This document shows, one piece after another, positions 14,651 to 47,440 of a DNA stretch of 64,000 nt. Position numbers and translations under genes: made by a program. Source of the stretch: Advenella sp. S44 (lineage in GTDB: Bacteria; Pseudomonadota; Gammaproteobacteria; Burkholderiales; Burkholderiaceae_B); contig NZ_NEXS01000001.1 of the NCBI RefSeq assembly GCF_002810445.1, forward strand, positions 124,001 to 188,000. The letters are read 5' to 3'. Position 1 is the stretch's first letter, and every line of letters begins with the position of its first letter. The notes below the pieces were generated by a model that ran no database searches, was not told the DNA's origin, and saw only the letters and a program-made list of their open reading frames with translations.

Positions 14651-14828
14651 CCTGCCCGCAGTAGATTTACTTTACTGCGAAGGTATACATGTTCCGCGAC
14701 GTGGCTTACGCCTGTGGCATCGTCATAGGCAGGAGATCCGGGCCACCTGCCCGCAGCAGATTTGCCATACTACGAAGGCGTACATGTTCAGCGATGCGGC
14801 TTACGTCTGTAGTATCGACATACGCAGG
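14651..14828. repeat. Tandem duplication of a permease gene end (two units, 95-bp period)
   Basis: Two copies of an 83-base sequence, 14651-14733 and 14746-14828, match at about 68 of 83 positions. The right copy contains the last codons of the ABC permease gene, encoding LRMSILQT then stop. The left copy still reads L-P-M-T-M-P-Q-A then stop in the same relative frame. This looks like an old tandem duplication of the gene's 3' end that has since drifted. The remaining part of the spacer (14339-14650) holds no gene I can support. Confidence 0.75.
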
Positions 14829-15637
14829 CGTTCGGCGCGTCGCCGCAGCCATTCGAGCGTGAGTAGCATGACAACGGAAAATAGAATCAGCAATGTCGCA
14901 GCGGCAGCGATGGTCGGATTCAGATTCTCACGGATCCCACTGAACATGACACGCGGCAGGGTGTACTGGTCGGGCCCCGCGATAAACAGCGTCATGACCA
15001 CTTCATCGAACGACGTGCCAAAGGCGAACAGCGCCCCCGAGATCACGCCCGGTGCGATAAGGGGAAGCGTGACTTTACGGAATGCGTACAATGGCGGTGC
15101 GCCAAGACTGGCCGCCGCCCTGCCCAGATTGGTGTCGTAACCTTCGAGCGTGGCCATCACTGTGATCAGCACGAACGGCGCGCCAAGCACGGCATGCATG
15201 ACAACCAGCAGGCCCAGATTGTTGGCCAGACCCAGGGGCGCAAAGAACAGATAGGCGGCCACGCCCAGAATAACGACCGGCACGACCATGGGGGAAATCA
15301 GCAGCGCCAGCAACAGCCCTTTGCCGGGAAAGCGCGCCCGATACAGCGACAACGCCGCAGCCGTTCCCAGCACCGTGGCAATCGCGGTCGCCAGCGGCGC
15401 AACAATCAGCGTATTTTTCAGTCCCAGCATCCACTCGGGCGATTGGAAGAAGTTTTCGTACCAGCGCAGGGAAAAGCCACTTAGGGGGTAGACCAGGAAT
15501 GAACTGTCATTGAACGACAGCGGCACAATGACCAGCACCGGCACAATCAGAAACAATAGCACCAGCAGAGCCAGCAGCCAGTGAACCACGCGCCAGATAC
15601 GTTCGGAAGGCGTAAGAATGGTCTTTTGCTGCGCCAT
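14801..15637 (-). CDS. ABC transporter permease, PotC-like
   Basis: The 278-residue inner-membrane protein has six predicted helices and the binding-protein-dependent permease motif in its cytosolic loop, EGYDTNLGRAAASLGAPPLYAFRKVTLPLI, with the EAA-like GRAAASLGA core. The order of the operon (binding protein, two permeases) and the similarity in style to PotC/PotI suggest polyamine or a related amino compound as substrate. Its ATG directly follows the stop of the upstream permease with no spacer, so translation is coupled. Its 3' end lies inside a tandem duplication. Confidence 0.92.
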   Translation of the reverse strand: MAQQKTILTPSERIWRVVHWLLALLVLLFLIVPVLVIVPLSFNDSSFLVYPLSGFSLRWYENFFQSPEWMLGLKNTLIVAPLATAIATVLGTAAALSLYRARFPGKGLLLALLISPMVVPVVILGVAAYLFFAPLGLANNLGLLVVMHAVLGAPFVLITVMATLEGYDTNLGRAAASLGAPPLYAFRKVTLPLIAPGVISGALFAFGTSFDEVVMTLFIAGPDQYTLPRVMFSGIRENLNPTIAAAATLLILFSVVMLLTLEWLRRRAERLRMSILQT

Positions 15638-16816
15638 TTACGCTACCCCCAGGCGGGTCGAGCCGCTAAGCCGGCTGTAGACCGCATACAAAATCAAGGT
15701 TGCCAGCAGCAGCATGGCAGCCAATGCCCCGGCCAGGCCCCAGTTGATGGTGCCATTGGTATAGAAGGCGATAAAGTAGCTGATCATCTGATCCTTCGGG
15801 CCGCCCAGCAGTGCCGGTGTAATGTAATACCCGATTGCCGTAATGAAGACCAGCAGGCAGCCCGCGCCAATGCCGGGCAGGGTCTGTGGAAAATACACCG
15901 CCCAGAAACTGCGCAAGGGATGACAGCCCAGGGAAACGGCGGCACGCATGTAGGTGGGCGAGATACCTTTCATCACACTGTACAAAGGCAGGATCATAAA
16001 CGGAAGCATGATATGCACCATGGCAATATAGACGCCCAGCCGGTTAAATACCAATTGCATGGGCGCATCAATCAGCCCGATATGCAATAGCAGGCGATTG
16101 ATCAGACCGCCATTTTGCAATAGCACGATCCAGGCCGCCGTGCGCACCAGTAAAGACGTCCAGAAGGGTAGCAACACCAGAATCATGAGCAGATTACTGC
16201 TGCGCGCGGGCAGCCTGGCGAGCAGATACGCCAGCGGGTAGGCCAGCACCAGCGCCACCAGCGTTACCACAGTTGCCATCCAGAAGGTGCGCAGGTAAAT
16301 GGCCTTGAAAATGCCCTGGTTCGGCGGCGCCGCAGCAATGCTGCCGTCGGGCGCCTGTTTCAGATCCAGAGCAGTCAGCAGATAGTATGGCGTTTGCGCC
16401 CGGGCATTGTTTTTCAATATGCCCCAATAGGTCTGGTCGGACCAGCGCGGATCAATCTGGTCAAATGCTTCCTGGAAGCTGGGCGGATCAATCTTGAAGG
16501 GCAGCTTGCGGGCCGTTTTGGCAATCAGCGTACGAAACCCCGCCTGTTCGAAATTGAGGCGCTGCATCAGCGGCCCCATTGCCTGTTCGGCGCGCGCCCG
16601 GGCCAGGTCATCGGCCAGGGCACGGTACATGGCTTCGCTCACCGGCGTACCGGGTTCCCACTTGTGCAGGGTTTTAACGGTGGCGGGCAAAATAGTGACC
16701 ACTTCAGGATTAGCCACGCTTTTGCCCAGGAATGACGCGATAGGCGCCACAAAGGTCAGCAGCAGAAATAGCAGCAACGGCACCACCAGCCAGAGCGCCT
16801 TGCGTGGTCCCGTCAT
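15638..16816 (-). CDS. ABC transporter permease, PotB-like, with long periplasmic insertion
   Basis: The 392-residue product is about 100 residues longer than PotB. After the first helix (LWLVVPLLLFLLLTFVAPIASF) an insertion of roughly 120 polar residues, about 35-160 and probably periplasmic, precedes the core of five helices. The core holds the EAA-like loop KGISPTYMRAAVSLGCHPLRSFWAVYFPQTLPGI. Start and stop overlap its neighbours: its ATG shares one base with the stop of the binding-protein gene. It pairs with the next permease to form the membrane channel. Similar long loops occur in some PotB-family permeases; their role is unclear to me. Confidence 0.92.
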   Translation of the reverse strand: MTGPRKALWLVVPLLLFLLLTFVAPIASFLGKSVANPEVVTILPATVKTLHKWEPGTPVSEAMYRALADDLARARAEQAMGPLMQRLNFEQAGFRTLIAKTARKLPFKIDPPSFQEAFDQIDPRWSDQTYWGILKNNARAQTPYYLLTALDLKQAPDGSIAAAPPNQGIFKAIYLRTFWMATVVTLVALVLAYPLAYLLARLPARSSNLLMILVLLPFWTSLLVRTAAWIVLLQNGGLINRLLLHIGLIDAPMQLVFNRLGVYIAMVHIMLPFMILPLYSVMKGISPTYMRAAVSLGCHPLRSFWAVYFPQTLPGIGAGCLLVFITAIGYYITPALLGGPKDQMISYFIAFYTNGTINWGLAGALAAMLLLATLILYAVYSRLSGSTRLGVA

Positions 16817-17877
16817 TATTTGGCAACCCAGGCGTTATACCGCTGCTCCAGGGAAACACCATTGTCGATCCAGAAATCCACATCCAGTGCAATGGCGTTC
16901 TTCTCGTTTTCGGGTGCCGTTGGCATATCGGCCAGATATTTCTTGTCTATCAGCGGGATCGCTTTTTTATTGACGACACCGTAAGCGATATTTTCGGCAT
17001 AGACTTTCTGGGTTTCGGGTTTGCTGGCAAAGGCGATGAACTTCATTGTCTCGGCTATGTTCTTACTGCCTTTGGGAATGGCCCAGTAATCCAGATCGTA
17101 AACACTTTGATCCCAGACAACTTTCAGATTTGTCCCTTCGCGGGCCGCCTGGGAAATCCTGCCGTTATAGGCCGAGGTCATGACCACGTCGCCTGATACC
17201 AGATACTGGGCTGGCTGCGCGCCCGACTCCCACCACTGGATATGGGGCTTGAGCTCATCCAGCTTGGCAAAGGCACGATCCACGCCCTCGGGCGTGGCCA
17301 GCACATTGTAAACGTCTTTAGGCGATACGCCATCGGCCATCAAGGCGATTTCCAGCGTGTATTTTGCGCCCTTGCGCAGACCGCGCTTGCCCGGGTATTT
17401 TTTGACATCCCAGAAATCGGCCCAGCTGGTGGGCGCATTGTCCTTGAGTTTGTCGCCATGATAGGCCAGCGCAACCGACCATACAAACATGCCGACGCCG
17501 CAGTCTTTGTCGGTCGCCGCCTCGATAAAATCGGCTTTGTCGCCAATGCCGCCCCAGTCAATCGGCTCGAACAATCCCTCTTCGCAGCCACGCACCAGTT
17601 CTGGGCTTTCCACTTCCACGGCATCCCAGCTCACACTGCTGGTGTCTACCATCGCCTTGATCTTGGCCTGCTCCCCGTTGTATTCGGCTGCAGTGATCTT
17701 GATGCCCGTTTCTTTTTCATAGGGTCCGTAATACGCCTTTTCCTGCGCCGTTTTATTGTCTCCGCCAAAGGAAACCAGCGTCAGGCTATCGGCCGCATGG
17801 GCACCCGCTGCGCCCAACCCCAGGCAGGTCGCTACTGCGGCGCGCAATACGACGCCCTTGATTGTTGTACTTTTCAT
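16816..17877 (-). CDS. ABC transporter periplasmic substrate-binding protein, PotD/PotF-like
   Basis: The 353-residue product has a signal peptide (cut near AGAHA|ADS) and a mature domain opening LTLVSFGGDNKTAQEKAYYGPYEKETGIKI, followed by WDAVEVESPELVRGCEEGLFEPIDW, the arrangement of the PotD/PotF-type (extracellular solute-binding family 1-like) proteins. It would bind a polyamine or related amino compound and deliver it to the two permeases that follow. An aminotransferase and gamma-glutamyl enzymes lie nearby. It is first in its transcript; the ATPase gene is 240 bases upstream on the same strand beyond a repeat-filled spacer. Confidence 0.9.
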   Translation of the reverse strand: MKSTTIKGVVLRAAVATCLGLGAAGAHAADSLTLVSFGGDNKTAQEKAYYGPYEKETGIKITAAEYNGEQAKIKAMVDTSSVSWDAVEVESPELVRGCEEGLFEPIDWGGIGDKADFIEAATDKDCGVGMFVWSVALAYHGDKLKDNAPTSWADFWDVKKYPGKRGLRKGAKYTLEIALMADGVSPKDVYNVLATPEGVDRAFAKLDELKPHIQWWESGAQPAQYLVSGDVVMTSAYNGRISQAAREGTNLKVVWDQSVYDLDYWAIPKGSKNIAETMKFIAFASKPETQKVYAENIAYGVVNKKAIPLIDKKYLADMPTAPENEKNAIALDVDFWIDNGVSLEQRYNAWVAK

Positions 17878-17921
17878 TTGTCTCTCTCCACATTAAGGTT
17901 GTGATACCACTGTGCTGGCTC

Positions 17922-18120
17922 TACCGCTGAGCTTGATCTACCGCTGCCGTCTTTCGGCCTGTGTACGCTTTCTGCCGGTATCCGTCTTACCGCTGTACTT
18001 CTTATACCGGCGCCCTCATTAAACCGCCGTCCTTCGTATACTGCCGTTCTTCCTACGCCGTCCGTCTTAATCCGACTACCTCGCTAAACCGCCGGCCTTG
18101 TTCCGTCACTATCCGTGCTA
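17922..18120. repeat. Degenerate 17-bp tandem repeat array (about 11 units)
   Basis: The spacer is made of units close to TACCGCCGTCCTTCTTA. Units start at 17922, 17939, 17956, 17973, 17988, 18005, 18022, 18039, 18056, 18070 and 18087; eight of the first ten are exactly 17 long, two are 14-15, and the last is 25 or more. Individual units differ at many positions. The array runs into the stop codon (18118-18120) and possibly the last codons of the ATPase gene. It is not CRISPR, since there are no unique spacers. Confidence 0.75.
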
Positions 18121-19242
18121 AATCGCCGCCGTCACCTCTATCGGGTCCAGAAGCCGCACAAATTCGTGATTCCAGCCCAGATCGACGGTATCGCCCACCG
18201 CGATTTTCTGTTGAACCTGGGACACCGGCTGCTTCACCACAAAGTCGGGATCGCCATTGATAACCAGCCGAACACGAACATGATCGCCCAGATAAATGAC
18301 TTCCCGGACCTTGCCCTGGCAACGCACATCGGTAGCGTTTTGCGCCGGATTGATCGCAATTCTTTCGGGACGAATCGATACCGATACGCGATCACCCGCT
18401 TTCATTCCCAATTGCGGCGTACCCTGGATTTGCATACCGCTGTCCAAATCAACCGTGGCCTGACGCGCGCCCGCATGCGCAATGGTGCCATGCGTACGGT
18501 TGTTTTCGCCGATGAAACCGGCAACAAATGCGGTGTCGGGCGCCTCGTATATATCCTGGGGAGAGCCGATCTGCTGGACCATACCGTCATGAAAGACGGC
18601 GACGCGGTCCGACATGGTCAGGGCCTCGTCCTGATCGTGCGTCACGTAGACAACCGTCACGCCCAGTTCGCCATGCAGCCGTTTGATCTCCAGTTGCATA
18701 TGTTCGCGCAACTGTTTGTCCAGCGCTCCCAACGGTTCATCCATTAGCACCAGTTCAGGCTCGAATACCAGCGCCCGCGCCAATGCCACGCGCTGCTGCT
18801 GGCCGCCTGACAACTGCGAGGGGTATCGTTTTTCCATGCCATTGAGCTGCACCATGGCCAGTGCCTTGCTGACTTTCTGCTGCCGGGTGGCGGCATCGAC
18901 CTTGCGAACCTTCAGTGGAAACGCCACATTCTCCTGTACCGTGATATGCGGAAACAGGGCGTAATTCTGAAAGACCATGCCGATATTGCGTTTGTGAGGA
19001 GGCAGGTTATCTATTTGCTCTCCGGCCAGTTCAATGGTGCCCGATGTGGGTGTCTCGAAACCGGCCAGCATCATGAGCGTGGTGGTCTTGCCTGAACCCG
19101 AGGGACCCAGCAGGGTCAGAAATTCCCCCCGCCGGATATCCAGGTTCAGATGCCGGACAACCTGGTTCTTGCCATCGTAACTCTTGCGCACGTTCTTGAA
19201 ACGCACCAGAGGGTTGTTGTTATTCGCATTTGCTGCAGACAT
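18118..19242 (-). CDS. ABC transporter ATP-binding protein, PotA-like
   Basis: The 374-residue ATPase has Walker A GPSGSGKTT (46-54), the Q-loop in GMVFQNYALFPH, the signature LSGGQQQRVALARAL, Walker B ELVLMDEPLGALD and the switch His in VTHDQDEA. A C-terminal TOBE-type domain follows (SIRPERIAINPA onward). It would energise the PotBCD-like components encoded next on the same strand. I chose the ATG at 19242, since an upstream GTG at 19266 only adds eight residues; a GGGAG and an AAGG lie just before the chosen ATG. The gene's 3' end merges with a 17-bp repeat array. Confidence 0.95.
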   Translation of the reverse strand: MSAANANNNNPLVRFKNVRKSYDGKNQVVRHLNLDIRRGEFLTLLGPSGSGKTTTLMMLAGFETPTSGTIELAGEQIDNLPPHKRNIGMVFQNYALFPHITVQENVAFPLKVRKVDAATRQQKVSKALAMVQLNGMEKRYPSQLSGGQQQRVALARALVFEPELVLMDEPLGALDKQLREHMQLEIKRLHGELGVTVVYVTHDQDEALTMSDRVAVFHDGMVQQIGSPQDIYEAPDTAFVAGFIGENNRTHGTIAHAGARQATVDLDSGMQIQGTPQLGMKAGDRVSVSIRPERIAINPAQNATDVRCQGKVREVIYLGDHVRVRLVINGDPDFVVKQPVSQVQQKIAVGDTVDLGWNHEFVRLLDPIEVTAAI

Positions 19243-19338
19243 AAACCTTGCTTCTCCCAGTATCACTCATGCAACGACGGGTCGCGCCGACGACGTGCCT
19301 GCCACCAAACGGCGCAATCAAATCATTGCATCGCATGC

Positions 19339-19374
19339 GGCAATCACATCTGAATTATTCCAAATGTGATTGCC
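19339..19374 (-). promoter_or_regulatory. Long hairpin between aminotransferase and ATPase genes
   Basis: GGCAATCACAT and ATGTGATTGCC form a perfect 11-bp stem with a 14-base loop. It lies 41 bases after the aminotransferase stop and 96 bases before the start codon of the PotA-like gene. There is no T-run, so it may stabilise or trim the mRNA between the two genes rather than terminate it. Confidence 0.55.
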
Positions 19375-19414
19375 AGCCGTATCCCGTGAGGTTTGGACCT
19401 CCGATGAATCAGCT

Positions 19415-20785
19415 TCAAGACTTGAGCGACTGCTGCGTGGCGTCCAGCGCCTGCGTGACAGCATCGACCAGCGTATCCACCTGCTCTGCCGTGATAATCA
19501 ACGGCGGGCAGAAGGCCAGGGTATCGCCGATATTGCGCGTGATCACGCCCAGTTCCTGCAGCTTGCGACCCACCGCAGTTCCCAGCTGCCCCGGGTTGGC
19601 CAGCGCCGTTTTCGCTGCCTTGTCCGTCACAAGTTCCACGCCTGCAATCAGCCCGACGCCCCGCACTTCGCCTACCAGCGGGTGGTCGCGCAGGCCGGCA
19701 AGCCGTTGCTGCAGATGCGCACCTGTCACAGACGCATTTTGTACAAGATTTCTTTCACGGATGATATTCACGTTTTCCTGACCTACCGCGACTGCGACCG
19801 GATGCCCGCCAGCGGTAAAGCCGTGGCCCAGCACGCCCAGCTTGTTACTTTCATCTGCAATCGGGTCGAACATGCGACTGTTAAGCAAAATGGCCGACAG
19901 CGGCTGGTAGGACGAGGAAATCTGCTTGGACAGTACCATCACATCGGGTTTGATGTCATAGGTTTCGCTGGCGAACATCTTGCCGGTGCGGCCAAAGCCG
20001 CAAATGACCTCGTCGGCCACCAGCAGCACGTCGTATTTGTTCAGCACCGCCTGGATTTTTTCCCAATAGGTTTTCGGCGGCACAATCACGCCGCCCGCGC
20101 CCATCACCGGTTCGGCAAAGAATGCCGCAATGGTGTCCGGACCTTCCTTCTGGATCAGCGCCTCAAGGTCTGCCGCCATGCGGGTGGCAAATTCATCTTC
20201 CGTTTCGCCGTCCCGGCCTTCGCGCCAGTAATGAGGGCATGTCGTATGCAATACACGCTCAATGGGCAGGTCAAAGCCTTTGTGATTGCCCGGCAAGCCG
20301 GTCAGGCTGGCCGAGGCGATCGTGACGCCATGGTAGCCCTTATGGCGGGAAATGAATTTTTTCTTGTTCGGCTGGCCCAATGCATTGGACCGATACCAGA
20401 GCAATTTCATGACCGTATCATTTGCTTCCGAACCCGAATTGGTGAAGAACACCTTGCTCATGGGTACCGGCGCAAGATCAACCAGGGTTTTGGCAAAACG
20501 AACAGCAGCTTCGTGCGTTTTGTGGGTAAACAAATGATAGAACGGCAGGGTCTGCATCTGGCGCATGGCTGCGTCCACCAGTCGCTGCTCGCTGAACCCG
20601 ACCGCGACACTCCACAACCCGGCCATCGCTTCGATGTATTTTTTTCCATGTTCATCTTCCACATAAATGCCATCACCGCGCGTGATGACCAATGGCCCTT
20701 GCGATGCATGCGTAATCGCATTGGTATATGGGTGCATGTGAAACGCGATGTCGTCACTGCCCTGCTGTGAAATTGAATTGCTCAT
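19415..20785 (-). CDS. Class III pyridoxal-phosphate aminotransferase (omega-amine type)
   Basis: The 456-residue enzyme has the class III motifs: NSGSEAN (116-122) for phosphate binding, the DEVICGFGRTG block (258-268) with the cofactor Asp, and the Schiff-base Lys287 in VLSKQISSSYQPLSA. Length and motifs resemble polyamine:pyruvate or beta-alanine:pyruvate aminotransferases such as SpuC. Next to a PotABCD-like importer it probably removes the terminal amine of the imported compound. The ATG at 20785 has GGAG at 5 bases; the longer open frame upstream crosses a 20-bp direct repeat and is unlikely to be translated. Confidence 0.92.
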   Translation of the reverse strand: MSNSISQQGSDDIAFHMHPYTNAITHASQGPLVITRGDGIYVEDEHGKKYIEAMAGLWSVAVGFSEQRLVDAAMRQMQTLPFYHLFTHKTHEAAVRFAKTLVDLAPVPMSKVFFTNSGSEANDTVMKLLWYRSNALGQPNKKKFISRHKGYHGVTIASASLTGLPGNHKGFDLPIERVLHTTCPHYWREGRDGETEDEFATRMAADLEALIQKEGPDTIAAFFAEPVMGAGGVIVPPKTYWEKIQAVLNKYDVLLVADEVICGFGRTGKMFASETYDIKPDVMVLSKQISSSYQPLSAILLNSRMFDPIADESNKLGVLGHGFTAGGHPVAVAVGQENVNIIRERNLVQNASVTGAHLQQRLAGLRDHPLVGEVRGVGLIAGVELVTDKAAKTALANPGQLGTAVGRKLQELGVITRNIGDTLAFCPPLIITAEQVDTLVDAVTQALDATQQSLKS

Positions 20786-31190: not shown

Positions 31191-33665
31191 ATGAACGCCA
31201 TCGCGGCATTACTCACGCTACTATCCGGACTGGCGCTTGCCATCGGCGGCGGCTGGCTGTTATCACTGGGCGGCAGTATCTATTACGTGGCTGCGGGTAT
31301 CGTCCTGCTGATCACGGCATTGCTATTGTTCCGGCGCCGGCCTTTCGCGCTCGTACTATATGCCGCCTTTCTGATCGGTACGGCCGTCTGGGCGTTCTTT
31401 GAATCGGGCTATGACTGGTGGCCACTGGCAGCCCGTCTGGGATTTTTCCTGGTACTTGGTCTCATCCTGCTGCTGCCTGGCGTTGCGCGCCCGCTGCGCA
31501 GCCGTCTTGAATCTGATCGTCGCATGGCGGCCAACGAGGCCACCAACTCCAAGGCCGTGCTGGCCGTTATTACAGTCGTAATCGCGATTGGAACACTGGG
31601 CAGCATCTTCAATCCAACGCATGAAATCGATGGCGCGCTGCCCGATGCCGTGGTCAGTGCGGAGCCCGATATGGGCAACGACGCCCACACAGGCGATAAT
31701 GACTGGCACGCCTACGGTCGCACCGGTTATGGACAACGCTATTCGCCGCTGGATCAGATCACGCCCGACAATGTCAGCAAGCTGAAACTGGCATGGTCCT
31801 ATCAGACGGGGGACGTCAAGCTCGAAGGCGATACCAATGAGTTTACTTATCAGGCGACCCCCATCAAAATCGGCAATACGCTTTATTTGTGCACACCTCA
31901 CAACTGGGCGATTGCACTTGATGCCGATACCGGCGAGAAAAAATGGGAATACAAGGCAGATGTGGTAGCCGATGGACAGCGGCAGCACCAGACTTGCCGC
32001 GGCCTGTCCTACTGGGCCGGTGATGCAGCCGCCTCGGGCGCTGCAGCGTCCACAAATAGCGACACCGAAACGACAACCGCCGACAATAGCCAGGCAGATG
32101 CGACAAGCACGACCCCTGCTGCTGCGCCTGCGACCGCATCCGAATCCGGCGCCGCTTGCAGCACGCGTTTGTTTCTGCCTACGGCCACGGCCAAACTGAT
32201 TGCCCTTGATCCGGAAACCGGTGAAGTGTGTAAGGACTTTGCCGATAATGGCGAACTGGATCTGACCCACAACATGCCATTCAAACAACGCGGGTATTAT
32301 TATTCCACCTCTCCACCGGTTGTTGCCAATGGCAAGATCGTTGTGGCTGGCGCAGTCAATGATAACTATGATGTCAACTCGCCTTCCGGCGTGATCCGGG
32401 CCTATGATGTTCGCAGCGGCAAGCTGTTGTGGAACTGGGACTCGGGCAACCCGGACGATACCGCCCCCTTTGATCCGAATAATCCAGACCAGAAATACAC
32501 GGTGAGCTCGCCCAATAGCTGGTCTGTGGGCAGTGTCGACGAAGAATTGGGACTGGTGTATTTCCCCATGGGCAACCGCACTCCGGATCAACTTGGCCAG
32601 TACCGCAACGAGCACGAAGAAAAATATGCAAGTTCCGTCGTCGCGCTGGATCTGAATAACGGCCAGGCCCAATGGGTCCACCAATTCATCCACCACGATC
32701 TGTGGGACATGGATTCGCCCGCACAGCCGACCCTCATGGACATCAGTACGGCCCAGGGCGTGGTTCCATCCATGGTTGTGCCCACCAAACAGGGTGATAT
32801 TTTTGTGCTGGACCGACGCACGGGACAAGCCGTGTTGCCGGTGCGGGAACTCAAGGCGCCACAGGGCACCATCGAAGGCGAACACAGCGCCCCTACCCAG
32901 CCAGAATCGGCATTGAACTTCAAGCCAGATCCGCTGACAGAAGGCAAAATGTGGGGCGGCACGCCATTTGACCAGCTCTGGTGCCGTATCCAGTTCAAAT
33001 CTCTGCGCTACGAAGGCCAGTACACGCCACCCTCTTTGCAGGGAACCATTGTGTATCCGGGCAACTTCGGCGTCTTCAACTGGGGTGGCATTGCGGTGGA
33101 CCCGAAACGCCAGGTCATGTTCGGCATGCCGTTGCAACTGGCGTTCGTGTCCCAGCTTGTCCCCAAAGAGGAACTGGGCAAAGATGTACAGATGAACGTC
33201 GGGGAACAAGGCGTCAACAGCAATGAAGGCGCGCCGTATGCCGTCAATATGTACCCGTTCCTGTCGCCAATGGGTGTGCCTTGCCAGCAACCGCCATGGG
33301 GCTTTGTGGCCGGCGTGGACCTGCGCACCGGCCAGACCGCATGGAAACATAAGAACGGTACGGTTCGCGACCTGACTCCGCTGCCGCTGCCCATCAAAAT
33401 GGGTGTGCCCGGTATTGGCGGCCCGATGGTTACCGGCGCGGGCGTCGTCTTCATGGCTGCGGCCGTGGACAATTACCTGCGCGCCTATGATCTGACCAGC
33501 GGCGAGGTATTGTGGAACGCCAGACTGCCGGCTGGCGGGCAGGCAACCCCAATGACTTATCTGAACAGCAAGAACGAGCAGATGGTCGTACTGGTAGTCG
33601 GCGGCCATGGATCGGTCGGCACCAAGCTGGGAGATTACGTCATGGCCTACAAGCTGGCGCAATAA
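31191..33665 (+). CDS. Membrane-bound PQQ-dependent dehydrogenase (glucose/quinate/shikimate type)
   Basis: The 824-residue enzyme has about five N-terminal membrane helices (1-140) that anchor it and bind ubiquinone, then a periplasmic eight-bladed propeller with W-motif repeats such as LKLAWSYQTGD, IALDADTGEKKWEY and AYDVRSGKLLWNWD, and the stretch DNDWHAYGRTGYGQRYSPLDQI shared by GCD and quinate dehydrogenases. It oxidises a sugar or cyclic polyol in the periplasm. An Ala/Thr/Ser-rich insertion (residues 278-322) breaks the propeller before ACSTRLFLPTATAKLIALD. The ATG at 31191 has GGAG at 6 bases, better than the one nine codons earlier. No pqq synthesis gene is nearby. Confidence 0.93.
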   Translation: MNAIAALLTLLSGLALAIGGGWLLSLGGSIYYVAAGIVLLITALLLFRRRPFALVLYAAFLIGTAVWAFFESGYDWWPLAARLGFFLVLGLILLLPGVARPLRSRLESDRRMAANEATNSKAVLAVITVVIAIGTLGSIFNPTHEIDGALPDAVVSAEPDMGNDAHTGDNDWHAYGRTGYGQRYSPLDQITPDNVSKLKLAWSYQTGDVKLEGDTNEFTYQATPIKIGNTLYLCTPHNWAIALDADTGEKKWEYKADVVADGQRQHQTCRGLSYWAGDAAASGAAASTNSDTETTTADNSQADATSTTPAAAPATASESGAACSTRLFLPTATAKLIALDPETGEVCKDFADNGELDLTHNMPFKQRGYYYSTSPPVVANGKIVVAGAVNDNYDVNSPSGVIRAYDVRSGKLLWNWDSGNPDDTAPFDPNNPDQKYTVSSPNSWSVGSVDEELGLVYFPMGNRTPDQLGQYRNEHEEKYASSVVALDLNNGQAQWVHQFIHHDLWDMDSPAQPTLMDISTAQGVVPSMVVPTKQGDIFVLDRRTGQAVLPVRELKAPQGTIEGEHSAPTQPESALNFKPDPLTEGKMWGGTPFDQLWCRIQFKSLRYEGQYTPPSLQGTIVYPGNFGVFNWGGIAVDPKRQVMFGMPLQLAFVSQLVPKEELGKDVQMNVGEQGVNSNEGAPYAVNMYPFLSPMGVPCQQPPWGFVAGVDLRTGQTAWKHKNGTVRDLTPLPLPIKMGVPGIGGPMVTGAGVVFMAAAVDNYLRAYDLTSGEVLWNARLPAGGQATPMTYLNSKNEQMVVLVVGGHGSVGTKLGDYVMAYKLAQ

Positions 33666-33682
33666 CAAACCAGCAAGACCGG

Positions 33683-33722
33683 GACTCTGCCTCGCACCTG
33701 ATGTGAGGCAGAGTCTTTTTTT
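33683..33722 (+). terminator. Rho-independent terminator after the PQQ dehydrogenase gene
   Basis: GACTCTGCCTC and GAGGCAGAGTC form a perfect 11-bp stem with an 11-base loop, followed by seven T. It begins 18 bases after the stop codon. Confidence 0.93.
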
Positions 33723-33873
33723 ATATACCGTTGTTACAGCAAGATCGTCTCCAGAGCGTCGTTCCCGCCAGGTCCATTCCGCCCCTAGCTTGCGACCCGC
33801 ACAGCGCCCGAGCATGGGGCTTGGCATTGGCCTGTCATACTGCTCACCAACACCGCAATATTGTCGATAGCGT

Positions 33874-34005
33874 TCAATCCGTATTGTCATGTAGCGGGAT
33901 CGATAGGCCGGGCTTGATCGAGGGCGCTCGATATTGCACTTGGGATATTTCCCGCTCGATAGTGCGCTTGAACTAGTCCACACTCGATATTGCGCCGAGA
34001 TGACC
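33874..34005. repeat. Degenerate 28-bp tandem repeat array (about 5 units)
   Basis: Units begin with TCGATA at 33874, 33900, 33928, 33956 and 33984; three consecutive steps are exactly 28 bases and the first is 26. The shared core is TCGATATTGCGCTTG, with the rest variable. The array fills the space between the PQQ dehydrogenase terminator and the AHSA1-arsR operon. The rest of this 450-base spacer shows no gene. Confidence 0.7.
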
Positions 34006-34083
34006 GGCGTGTGATAAAAACAATTGCCTGCTGTTTTTTGCCTGCTGCCTGTTGCCTATTCCGTTTCCCTGTTTTACACTTAG

Positions 34084-34101
34084 TGCAACCATATGGTTGC
34101 A
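34084..34101 (+). promoter_or_regulatory. Perfect 18-bp palindrome, likely ArsR-family operator
   Basis: TGCAACCATATGGTTGCA is its own reverse complement over all 18 bases. It ends 18 bases before the start codon of the AHSA1 gene, overlapping the ribosome-binding region and probably the promoter. The second gene of this operon encodes an ArsR-type repressor, which is the natural candidate to bind it. Confidence 0.75.
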
Positions 34102-34119
34102 TATTAACAGGAGGAATAT

Positions 34120-34635
34120 ATGTCTTCAAATCAGATTGAAAAAAGCGTCATTATCAAGGCGCCCGTTGCCCGGGTGTGGCGCGCTCTGACCGATGCACGG
34201 GAATTCGGAGAATGGTTCGAAGTGGCGCTGGAAGGGCCCTTTACTGAGGGCGAGCCCGTTAAGGGCAAGTACATTGGTCGCCTGGACGAAGAAGTAATTC
34301 GGCAATATCAAAGCCAGGCAGGTCTGACGCCATCACCAATCAGGCAGCCGCAAGAGAACACGACATTTTGCACAGTGCAGCGTATAGAGCCCGAACACTA
34401 CTTCAGCTTTCGCTGGATTCCGTTTGGCATCGACGCCGCCGCGGACCCGCAGAACGAACCTACCACGCTGGTTGAGTTCCGGCTGGCTCCTGTGGCAGAC
34501 GGCACCCAACTGACCGTGACGGAATCCGGGTTCGACAATGTGCCGGCACATCGCCGCGCCCGCGCTTTTTTGATGAACACCGGCGGCTGGAGCGGCCAGG
34601 TTGAAAATGTGAAAAAATATGTCGAACGTGATTGA
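34120..34635 (+). CDS. SRPBCC (AHSA1-type) domain protein
   Basis: The 171-residue protein has the START-like AHSA1 fold: IEKSVIIKAPVARVWRALTDAREFGEWF at the N-terminus, then a beta-rich middle and the long C-terminal helix starting MNTGGWSGQVENVKKYVER. Such proteins bind small hydrophobic ligands or assist other proteins; no catalytic residues can be named. AGGAGG lies 6 bases before the ATG. It overlaps the following ArsR gene by 17 bases, a pairing found in many bacteria, where the AHSA1 protein is co-regulated by its own ArsR repressor. Confidence 0.92.
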   Translation: MSSNQIEKSVIIKAPVARVWRALTDAREFGEWFEVALEGPFTEGEPVKGKYIGRLDEEVIRQYQSQAGLTPSPIRQPQENTTFCTVQRIEPEHYFSFRWIPFGIDAAADPQNEPTTLVEFRLAPVADGTQLTVTESGFDNVPAHRRARAFLMNTGGWSGQVENVKKYVERD

Positions 34636-34960
34636 TCAGACCATTGCAGATGTGTTCTTTGCGCTTGGCGACGGTAACCGGCTTGCGTTGGTGCAACAAC
34701 TGGTGACAGAAGGGGCGCAATCGGCAACAGGGCTGTCACGCAATGCCCATATCACCCGCCAGGCCATCTTCAAGCATTTGCAGGTACTTGAAGGTGCACG
34801 GCTGGTCGTGCATGAGCGCCGCGGTCGCGAGGTCTTGTATGCGCTGAACCCGCAACGGCTGGACCAGGCCAACGCATTCCTTAGCGGCATCTCGGCCGGA
34901 TGGGATCGAGCCATCGGGCGCCTGCAGGATATGGTCCAAACTGATCCCTCTGCGCATTAA
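34619..34960 (+). CDS. ArsR family helix-turn-helix regulator
   Basis: The 113-residue product has a winged helix-turn-helix: ADVFFALGDGNRLALVQQLV, then ITRQAIFKHLQVLEGARLVVHERRGREVLYALNP. It lacks the CxCxxC metal-binding pattern of ArsR/SmtB metal sensors, so it probably senses an organic signal or its partner protein. It overlaps the AHSA1 gene by 17 bases and should repress the pair through the 18-bp palindrome upstream. Its stop codon lies 11 bases before a 22-bp repeat array. Confidence 0.92.
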   Translation: MSNVIDQTIADVFFALGDGNRLALVQQLVTEGAQSATGLSRNAHITRQAIFKHLQVLEGARLVVHERRGREVLYALNPQRLDQANAFLSGISAGWDRAIGRLQDMVQTDPSAH

Positions 34961-34971
34961 GCGGCGCGTTG

Positions 34972-35188
34972 CCATGTGCCAGGGCAGCGACGACATAGAC
35001 CCAGCGCAGATGCCACATAGCCCAAGGCAGTGGCCACATAGCCCCGAGGCTATATCGACATAGGCTCACGACAGTGACGACATAGCCTTAACACAATGGC
35101 AACAAAGATCCAAGGCAAGCGCCGACATAGCTCGAAGGCAATGACGACAAAGTCGCAAGGCAGGGACGACATGGCCCCGGACAGTGGC
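34972..35188. repeat. Degenerate 22-bp tandem repeat array (about 10 units)
   Basis: Units resemble CGACATAGCCCAAGGCAGTG and start at 34991, 35013, 35034, 35056, 35078, 35100, 35123, 35145 and 35167, with a poor extra unit at 34972. Steps are 22, 21, 22, 22, 22, 23, 22 and 22, so the period is held while the sequence drifts. There are no unique spacers, so it is not CRISPR. It starts 11 bases after the arsR stop. Confidence 0.8.
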
Positions 35189-35275
35189 GCCTAATACGCG
35201 CCATGCGCTCGGGGCAATCTACTGCGACAATCCAGTTCGCTGAGGCGACTCCGCGCGACGCGCCAATGCCTTTCT

Positions 35276-35416
35276 TCAGGCCTTTCTTGACGCCCTTTTT
35301 GCCGCCCTTTTTGCCGCCCGGCCCGCCCCGACGGTGCTCATTCCGTCCATCACGAGACCCTGATTCGACCTCGCCTTTTTGTATCTGATCTGCCCGTTCT
35401 TGCGGCGTTCTGACAT
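35276..35416 (-). CDS. Small basic protein of unknown function
   Basis: A 46-residue open frame starts MSERRKNGQIRYKKARSNQG and ends in an Ala/Arg/Lys tail (GAGRAAKRAAKRASRKA), giving a very basic peptide. A strong GGGAGGA lies directly upstream at proper distance, the main reason to believe it. An overlapping frame in the same stretch would encode a Gly-Lys-rich repeat, but has no start codon or ribosome-binding site. I do not recognise a family. It is divergent from the livG-like gene. It could be a nucleic-acid-binding peptide or a chance frame in repetitive DNA. Confidence 0.4.
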   Translation of the reverse strand: MSERRKNGQIRYKKARSNQGLVMDGMSTVGAGRAAKRAAKRASRKA

Positions 35417-35547
35417 CACATCCTCCCGCTTCAGATTCACCTATGGTTAGCACTAATAGCAAATTGACGTGTTCGTAAGCATACTGTCCGCTACAACTAG
35501 TAGCGGGTGTATCGCCTGCTCTCTTGCGGGTTTCACAAGACAAGAAT

Positions 35548-36321
35548 ATGACAGATCTAATATTAGAGACAAAGAAACTGACCAAGGAATTTCTTGGTTT
35601 TGTGGCAGTGAATGCCGTGGACTTGCAGGTAAAAAGGGGTTCCATTCACGCGCTTATCGGCCCCAATGGTGCGGGCAAAACAACCTGCTTTAACCTGCTT
35701 ACAAAATTTATCACACCCACATCCGGCGAAATTTTTTTCAACGGCCAGAATATAACATCTGAAAAACCCTCCCAAATTGCACGCAAGGGAATCATTCGGT
35801 CGTTCCAGATTTCCGCTGTGTTTCCGGATATGACGGTCCTTGAAAATGTACGCATCGGACTGCAGCGCGAAGAAGGCACGTCGTTTCATTTCTGGAAAAG
35901 CGATGTGTCTCTGCAAAAACTGAATGATCGCGCCCGCGCGCTTTTGGCAGAAGTCGACCTGCTGGAGTTTGAGGACCATATCACCGCAAGCCTGCCGTAC
36001 GGCCGCAAGCGCGCGCTGGAGATCGCCACCACGCTGGCGATGGAACCCGAATTGATGCTGCTTGACGAACCCACGCAGGGCATGGGACATGAAGACGTAG
36101 ACCGGGTAACGCAACTGATCAAGAAGGTCAGTGCCGGGCGCACCATCCTGATGGTCGAACACAATATGAATGTCATAGCCTCTATTGCCGACCGTATTAC
36201 CGTTCTGGCCCGGGGGACAGTCCTGGCCGAAGGCGATTACGCCACGGTGTCCACCAACCCTGCGGTTATGCAAGCCTATATGGGCACTGCCGACGGCGCA
36301 CTGCAGGGAGCACACGCATGA
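35548..36321 (+). CDS. ABC transporter ATP-binding protein, LivG-like
   Basis: The 257-residue ATPase has Walker A GPNGAGKTT (38-46), the LivG-type Q-loop IRSFQISAVFPDMTVLENV, a modified signature SLPYGRKRALEIATTLA, Walker B LMLLDEPTQGMG and switch His in MVEHNMNV. The branched-chain amino acid transport group normally has two such ATPases, LivG and LivF, and the second follows with a 4-base overlap. I used the ATG at 35548; a TTG eight codons earlier is in frame but less likely. It is the first gene of livGFKHM, an order where the binding protein lies between ATPases and permeases. Confidence 0.93.
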   Translation: MTDLILETKKLTKEFLGFVAVNAVDLQVKRGSIHALIGPNGAGKTTCFNLLTKFITPTSGEIFFNGQNITSEKPSQIARKGIIRSFQISAVFPDMTVLENVRIGLQREEGTSFHFWKSDVSLQKLNDRARALLAEVDLLEFEDHITASLPYGRKRALEIATTLAMEPELMLLDEPTQGMGHEDVDRVTQLIKKVSAGRTILMVEHNMNVIASIADRITVLARGTVLAEGDYATVSTNPAVMQAYMGTADGALQGAHA

Positions 36322-42450: not shown

Positions 42451-42454
42451 CATT

Positions 42455-43960
42455 ATGGAACTACTTGAACACTTGGCGCTGGGGTTTTCGGTCGCGTTTA
42501 CGCCTGAAAATCTGCTTTATGCGCTGCTCGGATGTATTCTCGGAACATTGATCGGCGTACTGCCCGGTATCGGCCCTGTGCCTACCATTGCGATGCTGCT
42601 GCCGCTTACCTACGTTCTGCCTCCTGTTGCCGGTTTGATTATGCTTGCCGGTATTTACTATGGCTCCCAGTACGGGGGGTCAACCACGGCTATTCTGGTG
42701 GCGCTTCCGGGGGAAACCTCGGCGGTGGTCACGGTGCTCGATGGTCACCAGATGGCCAAGAACGGGCGAGCGGGTGCGGCACTTGCCATCGCCGCACTAG
42801 GCTCGTTCTTTGCTGGCTGCTTTGCGACAGTACTGCTGGCCGCGTTCGCTCCACCACTGGCTGAGGTGGCCTTCAAATTCGGGCCGGCAGAGTATTTCTC
42901 GCTGATGGTGCTGGGTCTGATCGGCGCTGTGGTGCTGGCTTCAGGCTCGTTGCCCAAAGCCATCTGTATGATTCTGCTGGGTCTGCTGCTGGGTATGGTG
43001 GGTACCGATGTGAACTCGGGTGTGGCCCGCTTTGACTTCGGTGTACCGGAACTGCAGGACGGTATCGACTTTGCCGTGGTTGCCATGGGCGTTTTCGGTC
43101 TGGCCGAAATCATGAATAACCTGGCACAAAAGGAAAATAGGGTCAACATTACCGACAAAATCGGTAGTCTGTATCCGAACAAGCAAGAGTTCAGGGAAGC
43201 GGCACCAGCCGTTCTCCGCGGCACGCTGCTGGGTTCTGCTCTGGGTATTTTACCCGGTGGTGGCGCCGTGCTCTCTTCGTTCGCGTCCTATACCATGGAG
43301 AAAAAGCTTTCCAAAAATCCGGAACGTTTCGGTAAGGGCCACCCTGCCGGTCTGGCCGGCCCTGAGTCTGCCAACAACGCGGCGGCGCAAACTTCGTTCA
43401 TCCCTCTGCTTACACTGGGTATTCCGGGTAACGCGGTAACGGCGCTGATGGTGGGTGCGATGACCATCCACAACATTCAGCCTGGCCCGCAGGTCATGAG
43501 CAGCAACCCAGATCTGTTCTGGGGTCTGATCGTGTCCATGTGGATCGGTAACATGATGCTGGTGATCCTGAACCTGCCACTGATCGGTCTATGGGTCAAA
43601 CTGCTCAAAGTGCCTTACCGCATGCTGTTTCCGGCTATTGTGCTGTTCTGCTCTGTCGGTGTGTACTCGTTGAACTACAACGTGTTCGACATCTATGTGA
43701 TGGCTATCTTCGGCATTATTGGCTACTTCTGGAGCAAACTCAAATGCGAGGGCGCGCCGCTGTTGCTCGGACTGGTACTGGGTCCGATGATGGAAGAAAA
43801 CTTCCGTCGCGCACTGCTGCTATCGCGAGGTGATTTCACCACCTTTGTGACCCGGCCGCTGTCCATGTCATTGCTGATCGCAGCAGCCATTCTTGTGGTG
43901 ATCGTGGCCATCCCGTCCATCCGCAAGAAACGCGAGGAAACCTTCGTCGAAGAAGACTGA
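42455..43960 (+). CDS. Tripartite tricarboxylate transporter subunit TctA (second system)
   Basis: The 501-residue membrane protein has the TctA signature LGTLIGVLPGIGPVPTIAMLLPLTY, the second-half repeat LGILPGGGAVLSSFASYTMEKK, and LTLGIPGNAVTALMVGAM. It is the main channel of the second Tct system. The gene ends 20 bases before a terminator. The high similarity in plan to the other TctA proteins in the window reflects an expanded family, not a recent copy, since the sequences differ widely. Confidence 0.95.
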   Translation: MELLEHLALGFSVAFTPENLLYALLGCILGTLIGVLPGIGPVPTIAMLLPLTYVLPPVAGLIMLAGIYYGSQYGGSTTAILVALPGETSAVVTVLDGHQMAKNGRAGAALAIAALGSFFAGCFATVLLAAFAPPLAEVAFKFGPAEYFSLMVLGLIGAVVLASGSLPKAICMILLGLLLGMVGTDVNSGVARFDFGVPELQDGIDFAVVAMGVFGLAEIMNNLAQKENRVNITDKIGSLYPNKQEFREAAPAVLRGTLLGSALGILPGGGAVLSSFASYTMEKKLSKNPERFGKGHPAGLAGPESANNAAAQTSFIPLLTLGIPGNAVTALMVGAMTIHNIQPGPQVMSSNPDLFWGLIVSMWIGNMMLVILNLPLIGLWVKLLKVPYRMLFPAIVLFCSVGVYSLNYNVFDIYVMAIFGIIGYFWSKLKCEGAPLLLGLVLGPMMEENFRRALLLSRGDFTTFVTRPLSMSLLIAAAILVVIVAIPSIRKKREETFVEED

Positions 43961-43978
43961 CCCGCGTTCTGAAAGAAT

Positions 43979-44037
43979 AATCCCCGCCCGGATCTGTGAT
44001 TAAAAACAAGAGGATCCGATCAGGCGGGGATTTTTTT
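43979..44037 (+). terminator. Rho-independent terminator after the second tctA
   Basis: AATCCCCGCC and GGCGGGGAT form a GC-rich outer stem with an inner GGATC/GATCC pairing, followed by seven T (44031-44037). It starts 18 bases after the stop. Confidence 0.9.
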
Positions 44038-44050
44038 GTCTGTCATTATC

Positions 44051-44210
44051 GGAATTGTTCCGTCGCGATCCTGGAATCGGTTTCGGTCTACCTTGGAACT
44101 GCTCTCTGGCACTGTCTTTGAATCGCTCTCTCTATCTCGAAATTGTTCCATAACGCCATCACGGAATTGATTTCGGTTGCCATATCGTCATTGATTTCGC
44201 CCAGTAGCCA
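44051..44210. repeat. Degenerate tandem repeat array, about 22-bp period (7 units)
   Basis: Units start with GGAATTG or a close variant at 44051, 44073, 44095, 44119, 44139, 44163 and 44187, steps of 22, 22, 24, 20, 24 and 24. The shared core is GGAATTGNTTTCGGT followed by a C/T-rich part. It begins 13 bases after the tctA terminator. No gene is seen in it. Confidence 0.65.
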
Positions 44211-44221
44211 AGCCTGATCGG

Positions 44222-44267
44222 AAAGAAGCAAGCGTGCAAACCTATGGGTATGCACGCTTGCTTCTTT
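44222..44267. terminator. Very stable 17-bp hairpin, probably a bidirectional terminator
   Basis: AAAGAAGCAAGCGTGCA and TGCACGCTTGCTTCTTT pair perfectly over 17 bases with a 12-base loop. The T-rich ends are short in both directions. It sits between two convergent units and likely ends the leftward SDR transcript. Between it and the SDR stop (44268-44469) an open frame of 44 codons (44355-44489) overlaps the SDR gene end but has no ribosome-binding site, so I do not call it. Confidence 0.7.
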
Positions 44268-44469
44268 ATCTGACGGACCGGCTGGCAAAGGAGTGCGGTC
44301 GCTTGGCATTGTCATGATGCACTCGCCGGCCTGACGACTGCCTGCCGAACACCCCTAATTACGCGATAGCAGCGCACCGAATGCCAGCGTGTCAAAATCG
44401 GCCTGCATCGCTACCGCGATCCGCTCTGCGCTACCGTAACCAAGCGCTACTACAGCGCCATCCTGCGTA

Positions 44470-45297
<828 letters not shown>

Positions 45298-45405
45298 TCA
45301 ATCACCGCTTTCTTTCTGTCACGGGGGATTTACCCCAATACCGGGCCGAGCGTGGAAAAAACTCGTATACTCTGACATCACTTTTATCAGTAAAACCTCA
45401 ATTTT

Positions 45406-46191
45406 ATGATTGGAAAAACCGCCACTGCTGCCCAATCGCGTTATTCGGCACCCGCGCTGGAAAAAGGGATGGCTATTCTTGAAGTCCTGAGCGAGAGCGC
45501 CCACGGCTGCACCATGAATGAACTGAGCGCCAGGCTCGGACGCTCGGTCAGCGAAATTTTCCGCATGGTGATTGTGCTGGAGAAACTCGGCTATATTGCC
45601 GCAGATTCCAGCGACCGCTACGCACTGACGCTGCGGCTATTCCATCTGGCCCACCGGCATTATCCGGTCCGCCAATTGACCGAATGCGCCCTGCCGCTGC
45701 TGCAGGAACTGGCCGTGCGCATCCAGCAGTCCTGTCATCTGAGTATTTACCGTCAGGGCAGACTGGTGATCATCGCACAGGTAGACAGCCCGGCCAGGTG
45801 GTCGCTTAGCCTGAAACTGGGCACAGAAATGGGACTGGGCGATACCTCATCGGGTCAGGTTCTGCTGGCCTTTTGCGATGACGAGGAACGCGCGCGCATG
45901 CTTCAGACGCATGTGCCCACAGACGGTGAACTCCTCCTGTCCGAAGTTCAGTTGCGCCGACAACTGGCCAAAGTCAGAAAAGCAGGATATTCAGTCATGA
46001 AAAGTCGACAGATCCAGGGCGTGACCAATATTGCAGCACCCGTACGCAACGAGCACGGCCAGGTCATTGCCGCCATCAATGTGCCTCATATCGCCCGTAT
46101 CGATGCCTTGCACACGCCTTCAGCAGACGCCATACGCCCGATGCTGCTGGATACCGCAGCACACATCTCGCGTCGGCTGGGACATGAATAA
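45406..46191 (+). CDS. IclR family transcriptional regulator
   Basis: The 261-residue protein has an N-terminal winged helix (about 14-75: YSAPALEKGMAILEVLSESA, then MNELSARLGRSVSEIFRMVIVLEKLGYI) and the IclR effector domain (about 85-255), with LQELAVRIQQSCHLSIYRQGRLV and IAAPVRNEHGQVIAAINV. It is divergent from the SDR gene with 189 bases between, the usual set-up for control of a sugar-acid pathway gene, and is the likely regulator of that gene and maybe of the operons to the right. Confidence 0.95.
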   Translation: MIGKTATAAQSRYSAPALEKGMAILEVLSESAHGCTMNELSARLGRSVSEIFRMVIVLEKLGYIAADSSDRYALTLRLFHLAHRHYPVRQLTECALPLLQELAVRIQQSCHLSIYRQGRLVIIAQVDSPARWSLSLKLGTEMGLGDTSSGQVLLAFCDDEERARMLQTHVPTDGELLLSEVQLRRQLAKVRKAGYSVMKSRQIQGVTNIAAPVRNEHGQVIAAINVPHIARIDALHTPSADAIRPMLLDTAAHISRRLGHE

Positions 46192-46410
46192 AACCGCAAG
46201 GGCGTGCAGAATACAAACCTGCAAACCTGCGCCCCGGGCATATAACCCCGCATCACGGCTGGCTGGCCGGTATGTCAGGTGCTATTGCAATAATGACATT
46301 ACACGTTGGCCAGCGATATTTGCCAAGCACAGTATTGCAACTGGCAATGGCAGCGGTGATCGAATCAGCGCGCCGGCTGCAAATGCCAATACGCGCCGCC
46401 TCTAGCAATA

Positions 46411-47319
46411 CTATTCACTGAAAGCGACATCAAAGGTCATCACCGACGTCAGCGATTGTCCCGGCTCCAGCGGTTGGCCGCCAACCTGAGTCGGGTCGTA
46501 GGTGGCATTCAGGTTAAACGCATCGGACGTATTGCTGACCGGTTCAACGCAGAACCAGTCTTTGCCAGGCGGGCTATAGACTACCAGGAAATCCAGGGGC
46601 TGGGTGGCCGTCATGCGCAGGGTCCGCCGCTCGTGGGGCCAGTGAATGTCTGCCACGTGATCCCAGCCCGTGAAGGGATGATCAAACACATGCCGATCAA
46701 TCGCAATGCCTTGTTTGAGTGCATCGGTATCCGGATGCATTGCCAGTTCCAGGGGCATGACTTCCTCATCGCTGATCCAGGCCTGCCCCACGCCCGCCGT
46801 CAACGTGGTGTTGGGATGACGAACGAAATACGGATGGTGTCCCATGCCCACCGGCATGGCCCGGTGTCCGGTATTGGTGACCGTCAGGTGCACCTTCAGT
46901 CTTAGCGGCTCCAGGACAAAACGCTGCGCGGCAACAAACGCATAGGGCCAGGCATCCGGCGTATGTGTATAACGTATGACAAGCTCGTTTTCCTGTTGTG
47001 ACTCCACGGTCCAGGGCTTGTTGCGCACAATGCCATGGATGCTGTGCGGCGAATCGGGCTTGGCCGAAGGGTACGTCACCCGCTGCCCTTCAAACTCGAA
47101 GGTGCCATTACGCAGCCGTCCGAACCAGGGCAGCAGTGGAAAGCTGGACATTTCCGAAACCAGGCCATCGTCGATAGCCTGCCGCGAGGCATCGCGCAGC
47201 CACGGGCAAATAACGTTGTCGATGTGGTGCCGGTAACCGCAAATTGCGCCCCCGATGTGGGGAGCAACAATGAGTTCGGCCTGCTCGGCGCGCAGGGTAA
47301 TCAGTTTCGTTTTACTCAT
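46411..47319 (-). CDS. Aldose 1-epimerase family protein
   Basis: The 302-residue protein has the galactose-mutarotase-like beta-sandwich: FPLLPWFGRLRNGTFEFEGQ for substrate contact, DSPHSIHGIVRNKPW with the catalytic His, MGHHPYF with the second His, and the catalytic Glu in DWFCVEPVSNTSDAFN. It would interconvert anomers of a free aldose ahead of dehydrogenation. It is 110 bases from the hydroxypyruvate-isomerase-like gene on the same strand, the gap holding a short repeat array, and closes this leftward transcript. Confidence 0.9.
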   Translation of the reverse strand: MSKTKLITLRAEQAELIVAPHIGGAICGYRHHIDNVICPWLRDASRQAIDDGLVSEMSSFPLLPWFGRLRNGTFEFEGQRVTYPSAKPDSPHSIHGIVRNKPWTVESQQENELVIRYTHTPDAWPYAFVAAQRFVLEPLRLKVHLTVTNTGHRAMPVGMGHHPYFVRHPNTTLTAGVGQAWISDEEVMPLELAMHPDTDALKQGIAIDRHVFDHPFTGWDHVADIHWPHERRTLRMTATQPLDFLVVYSPPGKDWFCVEPVSNTSDAFNLNATYDPTQVGGQPLEPGQSLTSVMTFDVAFSE

Positions 47320-47334
47320 TCCGTGTCCTTTCTG

Positions 47335-47440
47335 TGCAGTTCAAGTCGTAGCTGTCTAGTTCCAAGTCCTATCCTTGCAGTTTGATATCCGATCGGTGCA
47401 GTGGCAAGTTCTACCCGTGTCGCTCCGGTTCAGGCGTCAA
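47335..47440. repeat. Degenerate tandem repeat array, about 21-bp period (about 5 units)
   Basis: Units like TGCAGTTCAAGTCCTATCC start at about 47335, 47355, 47376, 47397 and 47418, steps of 20-21. It fills the whole gap between the aldose epimerase start and the hyi-like gene, whose stop codon region (from 47430) lies inside the last unit. Unit similarity is low; the even step is the main evidence. Confidence 0.5.

Follow-up and report, generated by a model that had tools for sequence, protein, structure and literature searches.

Tandem arrays in the spacers of the window

We analysed a stretch of 64,000 nucleotides of Advenella sp. S44 (contig NZ_NEXS01000001.1, positions 124,001 to 188,000 of the forward strand; hereafter the window, from whose first letter the coordinates in this section count), which belongs to a genome of 4.3 Mb in 17 contigs. 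Its subject of interest is a set of short tandem arrays in the intergenic spacers. A first-pass annotation, made from the letters alone, had listed five of them as degenerate, with a nearly constant step inside each array and unrelated units between arrays. Our ungapped lag scan of the window spacers (match rates of 62% against 27% as log-odds, lags of 10 to 60 bp, at least 2.5 copies) found all five, with lag scores, in order of position, of 42.1, 21.3, 29.4, 18.2 and 14.9. No dinucleotide shuffle, of 100 per spacer, scored as high as the real sequence in any of the five. The best lags were 17, 28, 22, 24 and 21 bp, where the listed steps were 17, 28, 22, about 22 and about 21 bp. Tandem Repeats Finder (TRF, minimum score 30) recovered the 17-bp and 22-bp arrays in part and missed the other three.

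The 17-bp array (17905..18102, about 12 copies) is flanked by two minus-strand genes: 15 bp away is the 3′ end of a gene for an ABC-transporter ATPase (18118-19266), and on its other side begins the gene for a solute-binding protein (16816-17877). The 28-bp array (33887..33995, about four copies) is downstream of a PQQ-dependent dehydrogenase gene, 221 bp from it. The 22-bp array (34979..35171, about nine copies) begins 18 bp past the gene 34619-34960 (plus strand), which, by eye and with no family search, we take to be an ArsR-type regulator. The 21- to 24-bp array (44051..44210; the lag scan scored 44088-44199) has a terminator-like hairpin after a TctA gene on one side and a second hairpin on the other, both read by eye. 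The 21-bp array (47340..47419, about four copies) fills the junction of the co-directional genes 47430-48242 and 46411-47319 (both minus strand), 10 bp from a 3′ end. The earlier statement that four of the five arrays touch or closely follow a 3′ end or a terminator was thus borne out, with gene ends taken from a simple purpose-written caller and not from the annotation.

The scan added a sixth array, absent from the earlier list, with a period of 14 bp at 49587..49687 (lag score 18.9). The two-copy duplication of 95 bp that had been noted beside the arrays (14651..14828) is present in the TRF output with 1.9 copies and 81% matches, and its second copy overlaps the last 28 bp of the open reading frame (ORF) 14801-15637 (minus strand). 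The spacer of the 22-bp array holds two further features. At 35281-35319, TRF reported a 12-bp repeat in three copies; read by eye on the minus strand it is Gly-Lys-rich, and it is probably not a decayed array but a small coding stretch. At about 35435-35470, upstream of the next gene, a block identical in S44 and four sister species ends an otherwise differing spacer; it is possibly a promoter or operator.

Distribution in the genus and position relative to genes

The arrays recur beyond the window. At the threshold, a lag score of at least 14, 26 of the 358 spacers in a sample of 724 kb (17% of the S44 genome) carried an array, against 0.2 per shuffled set, and 20 of these 26 arrays lie outside the window. 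The two outcomes that the first-pass annotation had named as refuting its view, shuffled spacers with as many arrays and no arrays elsewhere in the genome, were thus both contradicted. The window itself is enriched, with six arrays against about two expected from the rest of the sample (P 0.014). In a comparison set of one genome per species, we found 14 arrays in 340 kb of G007, seven in 320 kb of A. incenata DSM 23814 (G001), four in 320 kb of G008 and two in 40 kb of Advenella sp. FME57 (G006), a density of 1.2-5 per 100 kb in these four array-bearing sister species. A. kashmirensis W13003 (G003), the most distant of the five sisters, had none in 200 kb (120 + 80 kb), where 6.1 were expected from the others (P 0.002). 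The controls gave three arrays in 600 kb overall: one in 400 kb of four other genera of the family (G010, a lysine-rich match) and two, with weak scores of 14.6 and 14.0, in 40 kb of G024, which belongs to another family of the order. Two of the four species with small genomes that are placed in the same genus gave none in 160 kb. Had the other-genera and small-genome controls carried arrays as often as the array-bearing species, 17.0 would have been expected in the two sets together. The two small-genome Advenella sampled also have a G+C of 0.48-0.50 against 0.56.

Six of the 53 Advenella arrays were set aside by hand, three rows being one shared 29-bp repeat and three looking like missed genes; this left 25 in S44, 12 in G007, six in G001, two in G008 and two in G006. 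Across the 53 arrays the periods span 10-42 bp and, on inspection with no formal phase test, have no evident common value. The claim that units are unrelated between arrays also stood, since unit-to-unit comparison stayed near the shuffled level (27 against 17 of 1378 pairs at a score of at least 10), and the top three pairs came from one shared locus. Identity between adjacent copies was 0.52-0.72 in 21 of the 26 S44 arrays, at most 0.69-0.72 in one more and 0.85-0.93 in four. The units exceeded other spacers in AT-rich 5-mers by a factor of 2.6-4.9 (no significance test attached), to which the shared 29-bp locus contributed in part, and the strand asymmetry of the units was not significant (P 0.07-0.31).

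The earlier annotation had placed four of its five arrays at gene 3′ ends or terminators, and our counts, which include the cases set aside above, agree. In co-directional spacers, 15 of the 19 S44 arrays are nearer the 3′ end of the upstream gene (mean relative position 0.31, P 0.0015), and in six species together this holds for 25 of 34 (P 0.001). Divergent spacers carry three of the 26 S44 arrays against 7.2 expected by length. Twelve of the 26 lie within 60 bp of a 3′ end and three within 60 bp of a start. This bias could be produced either by purging near promoters, ribosome-binding sites and starts or by biased birth; the counts fit both, and our inference is tolerance rather than biased birth. 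Within genes, 6 of 618 S44 genes scored at least 18, every one with a period divisible by three, which is not clearly above the controls. In a called gene of the segment G000:C8:400001-420000 (17477-18640), an 18-bp repeat recurs in frame about 21 times, at 84% identity.

Orthologous spacers and single-copy seeds

The genes flanking the arrays align at about 74-92% to the five sisters, and the alignments are interrupted at the arrays. The sister comparison, run between species, showed that the arrays are missing and the spacers shorter in most orthologues. The spacer of the 17-bp array measures 240 bp in S44 against 25, 25, 25, 25 and 21 bp in the five sisters, that of the 21-bp array at 47340 measures 110 bp against 33-36 bp, that of the 44051 array 509 bp against 187-348 bp, and that of the 49587 array 491 bp against 215-344 bp. 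In the same segment, the spacer around a 12-bp array at 68162 measures 143 bp against 22-59 bp in four sisters, and that of another 14-bp array of S44 measures 261 bp against 91-92 bp in three.

The comparison covered five of the six window arrays, and none of these has an array of the same period at the threshold in the orthologous spacer; the 34979 array, for example, scores just 2.9-4.5 at its own lag in four sisters. Across S44, 14 arrays had an orthologous spacer in one to five sisters; for 13 of them no sister compared reached the threshold at the same period, and one, of 29 bp, is shared. The nearest same-period score, 12.8 for the 49587 array in G007, is just below the threshold. Arrays of a different period occupy the sister spacer in three instances (G007 at 34979 and 90673, G001 at 112503). 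At the 28-bp array and the 95-bp duplication the sister gene order differs, which puts both outside this comparison; on the side of the duplication, sister homology begins only at 14798-14819. The shared repeat is a 29-bp TATTTCATT-type repeat at G000:C8 84853-84933, in a divergent spacer; it is kept in G001, G008 and G007, unlike the other S44 arrays compared, and looks like an old regulatory element.

Spacer length follows the arrays more generally. Among 95 S44 spacers with at least two sister orthologues, the excess over the sisters had a median of 120 bp with an array (n = 11) and 0 without (n = 84; P = 9e-6), and of the 13 spacers at least 50 bp longer than in every sister, an array occurs in nine, the shared 29-bp repeat accounting for one. 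In G001, only one of the six spacers so defined holds an array; growth through arrays is therefore not equally strong in all species.

For some arrays a single copy of the unit could be recognised where the array is absent. Clear single-copy seeds were found for four arrays, namely the 17-bp array of S44 and the G007 arrays 103209, 29519 and 25240. Where the ABC ATPase gene ends, four of the five sisters have 11-14 letters of the 17-bp unit once (P at most 0.005; 0.19 in G003), and the stop codon within this seed was read by hand. The unit of the 12-bp array G007 29519 consists of the last letters of the upstream gene including its TGA, present once in three sisters. The other two G007 arrays, one of 17 bp at 0.99 identity and one of 15 bp at 0.77, have single-copy seeds in all of the sisters compared (three and two). 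Altogether, the unit was matched in a sister spacer at P of at most 0.01 for 17 of 37 arrays, or 11 of 31 after six shared or probably coding cases were dropped.

Divergence of the copies and probable origin of the arrays

We compared the relations among copies with a neutral simulation (60 runs each) in 13 long arrays of at least 5.5 copies and an identity of at most 0.8. Copy identity was flat with distance, within about one simulation standard deviation, in nine of the 13, as for one burst followed by independent decay. The unevenness of the consensus match among unit columns equalled the simulation in 11 of the 13, which indicates no constrained unit positions there. All-pair identity with gaps was 0.48-0.77 in the 11 long S44 arrays (0.69 in the 34979 array), and a fitted per-copy difference of 0.13-0.28 describes ten of these 11. 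Because the copies are mostly star-like and the columns neutral-like, the near-constant step is no sign of selection in most arrays. To judge from how the method works, a steady step without selection would result from decay mainly by substitution, the lag comparison regaining register one period past an indel.

With respect to age, S44 and its three nearest sisters have an identity of 0.62-0.64 at 4-fold sites, a distance of 0.51-0.55, and the S44 side has changed slightly more. By hand conversion, the S44 branch is about 0.26-0.33 long and the per-copy divergence of ten long S44 arrays about 0.14-0.35, which roughly fits birth within this branch, towards its base. Thirteen arrays, in four species, have an identity of at least 0.8, so that birth looks near-perfect, although in five of them the true unit, by eye, is only 5-9 bp and was picked up as a multiple, as the scan starts at 10 bp. 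Such arrays make up six of 12 in G007 and four of 25 in S44 (P 0.049). Among the 47 arrays retained, those of such identity have at most 5.7 copies and 92 bp; of the 23 arrays below 0.7 identity, 14 reach 100 bp. This skew is partly a detection bias, as degenerate arrays are visible only if long, and the missing long young arrays go beyond that bias.

We consider it probable that the arrays are decayed intergenic minisatellites, lineage-specific, born from local sequence and decaying without constraint, with no functional signal. Single-copy stretches of about 10-40 bp, some at a stop codon, would have been tandemly amplified in part of the Advenella lineage, presumably by replication slippage or template switching, to give several near-identical copies. 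These copies would then have gained substitutions largely independently and without constraint, and the step would have outlived the sequence.

Several results weigh against this account. Identity falls with distance in four of the 13 long arrays (49587, 32897, C8:1000001 805 and G007 32244), so not all arrays are single bursts. Columns are more uneven than simulated in 34979 (P 0.03) and in G001 14336 (P 0.00), and four S44 arrays have about twice the simulated indels. No seed was detectable for 20 of the 31 arrays, and six of the 11 seed matches come from the close pair G001/G008, where they may be shared arrays rather than single-copy seeds. Two S44 arrays are absent from the sisters in spacers that are not longer in S44 (112503, 480 against 393-608 bp; 90673, 73 against 99-215 bp). 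In several S44 arrays the copies have diverged as much as 4-fold sites across the species split, and more than the S44-to-sister spacers as a whole, whose median gapped identity is 0.80 with a random floor of 0.69. That the spacers are more alike than the array copies makes the age puzzle sharper, though spacers contain conserved elements. Between G001 and G008, conservation is lower within the array than in the remaining spacer in nine of ten rows (two of them one locus), by 0.01-0.19, from 0.92 against 0.94 to 0.62 against 0.81, with one reverse row (0.81 against 0.77). The lack of any long young array is not what a steady birth rate would predict; it may reflect a birth pulse, loss of long perfect arrays before decay, collapse in draft assemblies or faster mutation of arrays.

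The age puzzle would disappear if copies were born divergent by error-prone amplification, or if arrays mutated faster than their surroundings, which would explain their degeneracy despite their absence from the sisters. All-pair identities of 0.56-0.69 in several S44 arrays, at or beyond the divergence of 4-fold sites and below the spacer median, are in line with this, as is the G001/G008 comparison, in which four rows differ by at least 0.08. We nevertheless hold this to be unlikely, since the arrays of high identity point to near-perfect birth (with the reservation on short true units made above), the per-copy divergence roughly matches the branch length, and the spacer identity is inflated by conserved elements and gapped alignment. 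Great age followed by deletion in the sisters would also account for the divergence among copies. It would require the five sisters, the most distant G003 included, to have arrived independently at 21-25 bp for the 17-bp array and 33-36 bp for the 21-bp array; independent deletions to one size are implausible, and we give this explanation very little weight.

The first-pass annotation had proposed either a process that makes new repeats at gene ends and lets them decay, or a function of the period rather than of the sequence. The former is supported by the absence from sisters, the shorter sister spacers, the few seeds at stop codons and the star-like decay. The latter, in the form of repeated protein sites, DNA bending or transcript-end structure, could draw on the closeness of the arrays to 3′ ends and on the uneven columns of 34979 and, more clearly, G001 14336. 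It is quite improbable in view of the varied periods and unrelated units, the neutral-like columns of the other 11 arrays, and the lack, for 13 of 14 S44 arrays, of any array of equal period in the sisters compared. An origin of the arrays from a dispersed repeat family, from CRISPR remnants or from coding repeats that were overlooked can be given hardly any credence. A few matches do look coding by eye (the lysine-rich one in G010, G007 92117 and 87103, and G008 13379), but the units are about as unlike one another as shuffled ones, the region of the 22-bp array has no second copy in the S44 genome, and Rfam matched the window only at 3863-3942 (Alpha_RBS). A Megablast search of window positions 33600-35700 against plasmids gave no match.

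The preferred origin as decayed minisatellites can be set beside known repeats. REP (repetitive extragenic palindromic) or palindromic units are dispersed intergenic families in which one unit recurs across many loci, and the intergenic TAACTGA repeats of Beggiatoaceae reportedly also have one unit across loci. The Advenella arrays are likewise short intergenic repeats, but their units differ by locus, unlike those of the REP, MIRU (mycobacterial interspersed repetitive unit) and TAACTGA families. With bacterial minisatellites and variable-number tandem repeats, as described in PMC6749651 and PMC2884548 (the latter also touches on REP or palindromic units), they have in common short head-to-tail units, many of them unique to a locus, and abundance in a few species only. 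At least three head-to-tail copies beyond chance were present, with arrays accepted by our scan from 2.5 copies. They differ in that most lie far under the usual identity cut-offs (the small variable segments of PMC2884548 required a unit length of 20 bp or more and an identity of 90% or more), in their 3′-end bias, and in having array-free sister species at hand.

The nearest published parallel that we found seems to be the tandem repeats of Borg elements of methane-oxidising archaea, which PMC9879509 describes as perfect, A-enriched and also present in ORFs. Both appear to arise independently at each locus from local sequence, with locus-unique units; the Borg examples have units of 18-21 nt, one is missing in a close relative, and they can begin in the end of an ORF. 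The Advenella arrays, by contrast, are mostly degenerate and not A-enriched on the coding strand (A exceeds T in 13 and falls below it in 19 of 34 co-directional arrays, mean A−T −0.022), and arrays within genes are not clearly commoner than in control genomes. Literature searches on tandem or intergenic repeats in Advenella gave no account of these arrays.

With array-free sisters, seeds at stop codons in a few cases, and copies that would act as independent clocks, the arrays may serve as datable fossils of minisatellite birth in bacteria. They also warn that degenerate intergenic arrays keeping their period need no function, and suggest that tandem amplification can be a major source of spacer growth in a lineage. 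As a speculation that we ourselves regard as doubtful, a clade within Advenella might have passed through one or more pulses of some replication or repair fault that amplified short sequences, preferentially at the ends of transcription units. Such pulses would have been the main cause of spacer growth in the species of the window; the decayed arrays would date the pulse early in the S44 branch, with a more recent one in G007.

Two candidate genetic causes were considered and rejected. MutS passed the family cut-off in 17 of 18 genomes, and Ku was present in all six large-genome and none of the four small-genome Advenella, yet also in five of eight other genera of the family; three of these five (G011, G014 and G017) had no array in 100 kb each. 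Because of these distributions, neither MutS nor Ku accounts for the array-bearing clade. In G008, mutS appears as three adjacent family matches (G008:C1:2970666-2973239), which represent either a real breakage of the gene or sequence errors.

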